Assembly (NCBI GenBank): GCA_035656635.1
Contig: DASRSD010000165.1
Span: 1-54,372 of the forward strand
Length of the DNA: 54,372 bases
Direction of reading: 5' to 3'
DNA from: Pirellulales bacterium
GTDB lineage: Bacteria; Planctomycetota; Planctomycetia; Pirellulales; JADZDJ01
A program made the translations under genes and the position numbers. Positions 3,597-49,160 of this stretch are shown piece after piece (the first letter of the stretch is position 1; every line of letters starts with the position of its first letter). The notes under the pieces were generated by a model. The model did not search any database. It had not been told where the DNA came from and saw only the letters and a program-made list of their open reading frames with translations.

Positions 3597-3757
3597 GCGC
3601 GGAAATGGCAGTTTCCTGATTTCTGAATGCAGATTGCCGAGTGGGGACTCCGCAACTTCTACTGCATTCGCTACGATAATGCGTAGCTTGGTCTCTTTTG
3701 TCGCGCACTCCAGTCTGAAATCTGTATATTTCACCGTTGATTTCTCCTTTCCGCTTT

Positions 3758-31926: not shown

Positions 31927-32112
31927 GGAACGAATGATTTAACCACAGAGGGCACAGAGGAACGCAGAGGAAGATTTTTATAAGGAAGCCAGGAAGTTAG
32001 GAATTCAAGAAAGAACATCGGCGAAAAATTGAACGCTGTTCGATCGCGATTATTAGAATACATTCATTCAAAATTTTTTAACTCTCCATTCCTGCTTCCC
32101 TGGCTTCCTTAC

Positions 32113-32242
32113 AGGCTGTTTCAAAACTAGGAATCGGGTGGCTGGGGTCGACCGAAGGGAGCCCCCAGCAGCCTATTCACTGGGGGCTCGGCGGCACTCG
32201 ACCCCCGCCACCCTTGAAGGAAGTCCAGTTTTGAAACAGCCT
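32113..32242. mobile_element. 130-bp MITE-like element with 16-bp perfect terminal repeats
   Basis: Ends are AGGCTGTTTCAAAACT and its exact reverse complement. It is flanked by CTTAC on the left and CTTAT on the right, consistent with a short target duplication (CTTA), and removing it restores a continuous palindrome arm. No coding sequence. In its middle is a 78-bp inverted repeat (32136-32213) that is also found alone at 48952-49029. Confidence 0.7.
32136..32213. repeat. 78-bp inverted repeat, family also at 48952 and in trmD
   Basis: Begins GGGTGGCTGGGGTCGA and ends TCGACCCCCGCCACCC, with GCCCCCAGC and CTGGGGGCTC as the inner arms. A second copy of equal length lies upstream of the YjbQ-type gene, and the left arm alone recurs inside trmD. 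Confidence 0.85.
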
Positions 32243-32293
32243 CTTATGAATTTTTCTTCTGCTCTCTCCGCGTCTCTGCGGTTCCTCTTTGGG

Positions 32294-45410: not shown

Positions 45411-46268
45411 CTAAGACGGTGAGTTTTTCGATTCCCGCAACTTTTCCGGCGCCGAATGCGGTGTTCCGTCGAGTAAATCTCGCCGCCGCCGGCCGGTAAT
45501 TTGTAAAGCTTGCTCGGCCCGCCACCGGGCGATGGCTTCGTGATCGCCGCTGATCAACACTTCCGGTACGGTTAGGCCGCGATATTCCCGAGGCCGTGTA
45601 AAATGGCCCCCCTCTAATAATCGCAGATTGCCCGGAGTCGAACCTTCCGTGACGCCCGGGGTGGCTGAGGTCGAGCGAAGCAAGCCCCCAGCGGAAGTTG
45701 CTTGAACAGAAGGCGACTGCACCGAAAACGAATCACACCGGGCGCTATCTTCATCTCCCAGCACTCCCGGCACCAGGCGAATGACCGTGTCGATCAGCAC
45801 CATGGCCGGCACTTCGCCGCCGCCGAGAATGTAATCGCCAATGGAAATTTCATCGGGCTGCAAAATCTGCCGCACCCGATCGTCGAACCCTTCGTACCGC
45901 CCGCACAAGAGCAGCAGCCGCTGGTGATCGGCCAGTTCTTCCACCACGGCTTGCGTTAATTTTCGTCCCGTCGGCGTGAGCATGATGAGATGCCCGGGCT
46001 CGGCTGCGTTTCCGGCCGAAGCTGAACCATTCGGCGGCATCTTTTGAACCGCTTCGACCGATTCCACCACCGGCTCTACTTTCAGCAGCATTCCTGGGCC
46101 GCCGCCGTAGGGCCGATCGTCCACCACTTTGTGCTTTCCCTGGGCCCAATCACGAATGTTGTGCAAATTCACCTGCACCAGCCCGCGCTCAATGGCCAGC
46201 TTGAGCAAGCTCTGGCTGAGATAACCGGAAAAGATTTCCGGAAACAGCGTGAGAACATCGAATCGCAT
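45411..46268 (-). CDS. trmD: tRNA (guanine-37 N1)-methyltransferase with inserted segment
   Basis: Adds the methyl group of m1G37, needed to prevent frameshifts. 285 aa against the usual 230-250. The SPOUT knot is intact: 'DDRPYGGGPGMLLKVEP', 'LLLCGRYEGFDDRV', 'SIGDYILGGGEVPAMVLID'. The catalytic Arg and Asp are in 'IRLVPGVLG' and 'RCDSF' (Asp of DSF, equivalent to Asp169). Right after DSF, about 30 residues ('SAGGLLRSTSATPGVTEGST' and flanks) interrupt the linker before 'LLEGGHFTRPREYRGL' of the C-terminal domain. They are encoded by a repeat-derived insertion. Confidence 0.95.
   Translation of the reverse strand: MRFDVLTLFPEIFSGYLSQSLLKLAIERGLVQVNLHNIRDWAQGKHKVVDDRPYGGGPGMLLKVEPVVESVEAVQKMPPNGSASAGNAAEPGHLIMLTPTGRKLTQAVVEELADHQRLLLLCGRYEGFDDRVRQILQPDEISIGDYILGGGEVPAMVLIDTVIRLVPGVLGDEDSARCDSFSVQSPSVQATSAGGLLRSTSATPGVTEGSTPGNLRLLEGGHFTRPREYRGLTVPEVLISGDHEAIARWRAEQALQITGRRRRDLLDGTPHSAPEKLRESKNSPS
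45627..45719. repeat. repeat-derived in-frame insertion in trmD
   Basis: Within it, 45659-45690 matches the left arm of the 78-bp inverted repeats at 32136 and 48952 (GGGTGGCTGAGGTCGAGCG, then CCCCCAGC). The right arm is missing, so this is a half copy or a decayed one. The length of the insertion is a multiple of three (about 31 codons) and the gene remains open. Confidence 0.75.
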
Positions 46269-46313
46269 GGCGGATGCCGATTGCAGAATACTAGCTGAAG
46301 AATGGAGATTGAG

Positions 46314-46628
46314 TTATGTATTCGGCGTTGATCCAGAATCGCCTATATCTTTGTGAACGTGCTGCCAGTCGATATATTGCTTGAATATAGGCCATTGCAG
46401 CATTCGGCTTCGCAAAGCGTTGCATTCAGCAACTAGCCATCCCATTGCAGCAGCTGCAATTGCGATGATTGCGGGGTGGAATCTGTAAATCACGCCAAAA
46501 ACAACGATAATACAAAACACAAGTCCCAAAAACCACAAAAGATGGACTCGTGATTTTACAGCATTCATCGAATCATTACGTTCGAGTGCGCGCCACCTCA
46601 GCAGCAAGCTTCGGGTGTTTTGGTCCAT
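46314..46628 (-). CDS. small membrane protein between rpsP and trmD
   Basis: 104 aa with two membrane helices ('LLWFLGLVFCIIVVFGVIY' and 'AIIAIAAAAMGWLVAE') and short charged ends. I do not recognise the family. It occupies the place where rimM is found in most rpsP-trmD operons but has no similarity to RimM. No ribosome site is obvious, so the coding call is moderate. Confidence 0.55.
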   Translation of the reverse strand: MDQNTRSLLLRWRALERNDSMNAVKSRVHLLWFLGLVFCIIVVFGVIYRFHPAIIAIAAAAMGWLVAECNALRSRMLQWPIFKQYIDWQHVHKDIGDSGSTPNT

Positions 46629-46741
46629 GCACGCTTACCCCCTGCGGCAAGAACTGTGGATGCTTATTTGAAGATTTGACCGTCCCAAGCACTCAATTTG
46701 CAATCTGCATTAAATAATCAGTATTCTGCAATTGCCGCAAC

Positions 46742-48799: not shown

Positions 48800-48951
48800 G
48801 GGATTGCGAGAAACTTAACGCTGCGAAAAAATAAGAGCCGAAAATACTGCCGCCGCCGCTATCCGGAGACAGAACCTCGCATTTTACCGCATGTTAAGCC
48901 CGTTTGGCAATTGGATTTTGCCGCAAGGTCGTGATGCACTTTGCTTCCGCA

Positions 48952-49029
48952 GGGTGGCTGGGGTCGAACGAAGTGAGTCCCCAGTAGCAGAAATTCCGGG
49001 GGCTCGGCGGCACTCGACCCCGGCCACCC
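48952..49029. repeat. 78-bp inverted repeat, copy upstream of the YjbQ-type gene
   Basis: GGGTGGCTGGGGTCGAACG to CGACCCCGGCCACCC. Matches the 32136-32213 copy over its whole length apart from scattered changes. The reading frame of the next gene stays open through it, so its product could carry a repeat-encoded N-terminus if translation began at 48891. Confidence 0.85.
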
Positions 49030-49160
49030 AAACTGTTTCCATCAAATTGGCCCACTACCTGATTTGCCCACGGATTAGACTTTGGCGGCCTCCTCTGCTA
49101 CCGTTTTTATGCCGCCTTTGCAAAAGCGATTCCGAGAAAACACTCACGAAAGAATTGTGG

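Follow-up and report, generated by a model that had tools for sequence, protein, structure and literature searches.

The question raised by this locus is whether DNA from a multicopy palindromic repeat has entered the coding sequence of a tRNA-modifying enzyme beside its catalytic residue and, if so, how the enzyme came to tolerate it. The stretch analyzed (the window; 54,372 nucleotides) is one contig of the 4.9-Mb draft genome of a Pirellulales bacterium, which consists of 190 contigs. The initial annotation held that about 31 codons had been inserted in trmD directly after Asp-Ser-Phe, in the linker that orders over the bound tRNA. The relevant features are as follows.

45411 to 46268, minus strand: trmD, encoding tRNA (guanine37-N1)-methyltransferase, 285 amino acids, single copy (Pfam and NCBIfam; sole match in the genome)
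45726 to 45734, minus strand: codons for D179-S180-F181, corresponding to Asp169-Ser170-Phe171 of H. influenzae TrmD (PDB alignment)
45627 to 45719, minus strand: inserted linker segment Q184 to N214, with about 30 surplus codons (90 TrmDs of the order; empty site in the sister genus)

The product of the window gene scored 279.7 bits against the NCBIfam equivalog NF000648 (cutoff, 220) and 260.1 bits against the equivalog TIGR00088 (cutoff, 195) and is thus a TrmD, i.e., a SPOUT m1G37 methyltransferase; its nearest named relatives are from Pirellulales-like planctomycete genomes obtained from metagenomes. The protein retains D50, R164, D179, S180, and F181, matching Asp50, Arg154, Asp169, Ser170, and Phe171 of the H. 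influenzae enzyme, and the position beside the catalytic Asp was borne out by this alignment. According to a review from the group behind the tRNA-complex structure, Asp169 touches G37, substitution of Phe171 abolishes activity, and the interdomain linker is disordered without tRNA and becomes a helix once tRNA binds (PMC5372744), in agreement with the ordering originally proposed.

In the neighborhood of the insert, ffh, rpsP, trmD, and rplS all lie on the minus strand. Between rpsP and trmD, a 104-amino-acid open reading frame with a hydrophobic stretch was also observed (46314 to 46628, minus strand), for which no convincing counterpart was found in the examined stretches of the congener (G001) or of a genome from the sister genus (G002). 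A separate repeat of about 32 to 39 nucleotides is present in three copies in the window (3599 to 3637, 46280 to 46311, and 46700 to 46738), which are 75 to 79% alike when inverted, and two of these copies flank the region upstream of trmD.

Linker length was measured as the number of residues that separate DSF and the conserved [HQ]xTRP motif in the TrmDs of 90 genomes of the same order. This distance was 10 amino acids in 83 of the 90 proteins, 11 in three, and 15 in two, such that 88 of the 90 have linkers of 10 to 15 residues; it was 10 in the sister genus, 29 in the congener, and 40 in the window. Relative to the sister genus (DSFSHGNRWLEAGHFTRP), the DNA of which represents the empty site, the window gene has 30 surplus codons, and the 31 codons from Q184 to N214 agree with the size first reported. 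The linker is therefore lengthened by about 19 to 30 residues beside the catalytic residue in the window planctomycete and in the one available congener, and within the sample of 90 the insertion is specific to the window's genus. The comparison with related genera did not reveal an equally long, repeat-unrelated linker shared by all relatives, since long linkers were confined to the window and the congener. The insertion itself is real, but it is not private to the window genome, because the congener bears a repeat unit at the same position. Two genomes, both drafts, carry the insert. When 296 genomes of the order were searched with a DNA pattern for repeat-bearing trmD linkers, both known trmD genes were recovered, and the remaining matches looked unrelated.

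The repeat from which part of the insert derives is a 78-bp palindrome made up of two inverted units of about 34 nucleotides, an A-type and a B-type. Both units bear a GGGTGG tag and form a stem of six pairs. Complete copies in the window are located as follows.

32136 to 32213, plus strand: complete 78-bp palindrome, with an A unit followed by a spacer and an inverted B unit, the core of a longer element at about 32112 to 32243
48952 to 49029, plus strand: complete 78-bp palindrome, the core of a chimeric element at about 48927 to 49059

At an E value of 0.001 or lower, units numbered at least 112 in the window genome, 2 in the congener, and 3 in the sister genus; the first of these counts is a lower bound because scoring was confined to the 150 best candidates of each genome. 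By eye, many complete copies are embedded as cores in longer elements, whose terminal inverted repeats are of at least four kinds; several of these longer elements are bordered by 8-bp target duplications. Loci with the shared 78-bp core in differing ends include L002 to L031 and L202 to L226 of G000. The element at 48927 to 49059 has its left end from one subfamily and its right end from another, indicating that copies recombine through the shared core. A search for an autonomous element ending in GGTAGTGATGCA led to a single match to that end beyond the known copies, on C156 (L285), and the open frames there included no obvious transposase by eye. The window genome has 13 Y1_Tnp matches, one of which, a weak one on C116, is separated from an element by about 280 bp; no repeat unit was found within the 3-kb stretches around the best eight of the 13, and mobilization of the repeat by a tyrosine transposase thus received no support from those stretches.

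Within trmD, the insert can be divided into three parts.

45693 to 45722, minus strand: part before the unit, VQSPSVQATS, of which VQS is common to the congener
45659 to 45692, plus strand: 34-nucleotide repeat unit, an A-type arm (model R1), the coding strand of which is SAGGLLRSTSATP
45626 to 45658, minus strand: part after the unit, about 11 codons, missing in the congener (alignment with G001)

When the trmD copy was left out of the build, covariance model R1 recovered the unit at 45659 to 45692 with 44.0 bits and an E value of 5.6e-7 in the window, or of 2.3e-9 when the search was limited to a 221-nucleotide region. None of 300 shuffles reached the score of the trmD unit, and a 22-nucleotide pattern for the A-type arm had three matches in the window versus zero expected. 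The initial annotation had described part of the insertion as a half copy of the 78-bp inverted repeat. The repeat derivation of that part stood, and the half copy is one complete arm, but the recognizable repeat makes up only 34 of the 90 surplus nucleotides, or about a third; in the approximately 56 nucleotides that flank the unit no repeat was recognizable. A putative second, degenerate unit after the first was rejected, since its best match was equaled by 42 of 300 shuffles and gave no model hit. Likewise rejected was a 10-nucleotide match between the congener insert and an element end, the score of which was reached by 8 of 300 shuffles and the position of which relative to the unit was out of order. 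Terminal inverted repeats and a target duplication were looked for at the trmD copy and were absent.

The trmD unit of the congener occupies the same place, strand, and frame as that of the window and scored 32.6 bits (E value of 1.2e-5 in the congener stretch) with a model built without either trmD unit. The two inserts are colinear, each consisting of SVQS, six residues, SAGG, six residues, and ATP, after which the window protein has 11 more codons. The shared VQS and the exact colinearity favor one ancestral insertion. The loop types differ, however, in that the window unit is nearest the A type and a unit of the sister genus (L203), whereas the congener unit is nearest the B type, so that a later exchange or reinsertion of the unit would be needed. 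The seven codons that separate VQS from the unit look nonhomologous in the two genomes (50% identity over 30 nucleotides); together with the different loop types, this means that a single event is not proven. Since copies of the repeat recombine through the core, exchange with other copies would be plausible, by analogy, at trmD as well. On the basis of this sequence comparison, the insertion probably predates the split of the two species, with a later exchange or reinsertion of the unit.

Substitution has been relaxed in the insert. Between the window and the congener, the TrmD body had a dN of 0.037 and a dS of 0.76 (dN/dS of about 0.05), and the 22 shared insert codons had a dN of 0.40 and a dS of 0.79 (dN/dS of about 0.5, with few codons and a wide error). 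In an AlphaFold2 model based on 56 sequences, the mean pLDDT was 86.2, with most blocks of the body at about 92 to 98 and the insert blocks at 47 to 59, and the low values for the insert suggest disorder. The hairpin has not survived at trmD: single-stranded DNA folding of the insert was no better than that of shuffles (z score of -0.5), versus z scores of -6.4 and -4.0 for two intact elements, and both trmD units, in the window and in the congener, have one broken stem pair. Among three consensus variants of the unit, two are open in every one of the six frames and the third in five. Because the frame is open, the catalytic residues are intact, the insert pLDDT is low, the dN/dS ratio is about 0.5 versus 0.05, and the hairpin has decayed, the insert looks like a tolerated, disordered loop in the model, and the data favor a weakly constrained one. 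The presumption that the insertion is tolerated thus appears to hold; the initial annotation also suggested that the insertion could change kinetics. A second loop, at about residues 78 to 92 of the window protein, is also five codons longer than in the congener and is modeled with lower confidence.

Approximately 55 repeat loci of the window genome gave 20 long open frames that cross a unit, of which 4 had Pfam matches, one of them below the family cutoff. In all four, the repeat was N terminal to the matched domain and is therefore probably upstream of the true start; among the cases examined, trmD was the only clear intragenic copy. The same linker site has been lengthened in an unrelated manner in two other planctomycete lineages. 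In a phylum-wide sample, family f22 (L247 to L250 and L040) has 33 to 37 amino acids between DSF and the conserved motif; this insert (DPNGDP...GIPE.ARLLDCPHYTRP) resembles that of the window in its length and in its position directly after Asp-Ser-Phe, but its unrelated sequence is conserved between genomes and no repeat origin is visible. In another genome (L257 of G334), an 18-nucleotide tandem repeat in the linker encodes LEGPQY five times in frame. These expansions indicate that the position right after Asp-Ser-Phe accepts extra length in TrmD.

The explanation that we consider likely is that one unit of the multicopy palindrome, together with other DNA, was inserted in frame into the part of trmD that encodes the interdomain linker, in an ancestor of the genus. 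The protein would have remained active because all or almost all frames of the unit are open and the linker is disordered without tRNA, and the insert would have persisted as an extra, tolerated flexible loop directly after Asp-Ser-Phe. Under weak constraint, the hairpin would then have decayed, the codons would have diverged, and the window lineage would have come to exceed the congener by 11 codons; one lineage would also have had its unit exchanged for, or reinserted as, the other loop type. The differing loop types and the unlike neighboring codons could also reflect two independent insertions, one lineage having received an A-type unit and the other a B-type unit in this tolerant linker. 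For such a history there is a precedent in the different REPs at about the same recB site in two Xanthomonas species (PMC3733652), and other planctomycetes have lengthened the TrmD linker independently. Two insertions nevertheless appear rather unlikely, given that VQS is shared, that the inserts agree in frame, in strand, and in their exact spacing, both between DSF and the unit and past the unit, and that the dS of the insert equals that of the body (0.79 versus 0.76, over few codons).

That the insert has been kept by selection, altering tRNA binding or turnover or acting as an mRNA element that regulates trmD or rplS, would be in line with its place next to residues essential for catalysis (PMC5372744), with its retention across a synonymous divergence of about 0.76, and with the conserved, unrelated insert of another family at the same site. 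The high dN of the insert, the length difference of 11 codons between the two species, the absence of a hairpin beyond that of shuffles, and the low model confidence make such a function improbable. We are equally doubtful that units have been repeatedly swapped in frame, A type for B type, in the linker of this genus, with effects on m1G37 formation; if they have been, a loop adjoining the active site of an essential enzyme would be rewritten again and again by a population of mobile elements. Damage to the gene, leaving an inactive TrmD, might be expected at a site adjoining residues whose substitution abolishes activity (PMC5372744), but is very improbable for a single-copy gene with a full open frame, intact key residues, and a body dN/dS of about 0.05 between the two insert-bearing species. 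Two-thirds of the insert is nonrepeat, and the linker of L257 was lengthened by tandem duplication; yet growth of this linker by slippage or drift, with a fortuitous resemblance to the repeat, is scarcely credible, being contradicted by the covariance-model scores obtained without either trmD unit (E values of 5.6e-7 for the window and 1.2e-5 for the stretch from the congener) and by the shuffles, none of which reached the observed score.

The likely explanation, a tolerated in-frame insertion of repeat DNA, places the trmD insert beside several known kinds of elements. MITEs are approached by the complete 78-bp cores, which are enclosed by terminal inverted repeats and, at several loci, by 8-bp target duplications, but at trmD only one bare arm is present, which lacks such ends and does not qualify as a MITE. 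Intragenic REPs, i.e., GTAG- and CGTC-tagged palindromes, some of them in tRNA pseudouridine synthases (PMC3733652), share with the window repeat a palindromic unit of 20 to 40 nucleotides, a terminal tag, frequent inverted dimers, and occasional presence in housekeeping genes. The window repeat differs in that its tag is GGGTGG rather than GTAG or CGTC, so that it is not a REP in the strict sense, in that elements with terminal inverted repeats enclose its complete copies, and in that no REP-associated tyrosine transposase was linked to it in the eight 3-kb stretches surrounding the top Y1_Tnp matches. The Rickettsia palindromic elements in protein-coding genes (Ogata et al. 2000, 2002, as reviewed in PMC10969869) are likewise multicopy palindromes in frame inside conserved genes, missing in orthologues elsewhere and seemingly compatible with function. 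They are about 150 bp long, form ten families, and are often intragenic, whereas the trmD insert contains a 34-nucleotide arm of a mostly intergenic family in a planctomycete host, and trmD was the one clear intragenic copy of those examined. The repeat is present in at least 112 units in the genome, and, judged from the alignments, its trmD copy lies in frame inside a conserved gene and is absent from relatives outside the genus, as for an in-frame intragenic palindromic element of the Rickettsia or intragenic REP kind. Such palindromes are already known, and by analogy with them the trmD case appears to be a clear new example. An empty site, a congener, and two unrelated linker expansions are at hand to compare it with, and the case suggests that the TrmD linker can carry 20 to 30 extra residues, which bears on models in which the linker must fold over the tRNA. 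To the catalog of proteins with in-frame repeat DNA, it would add a tRNA-modifying enzyme with the insert at its catalytic linker.
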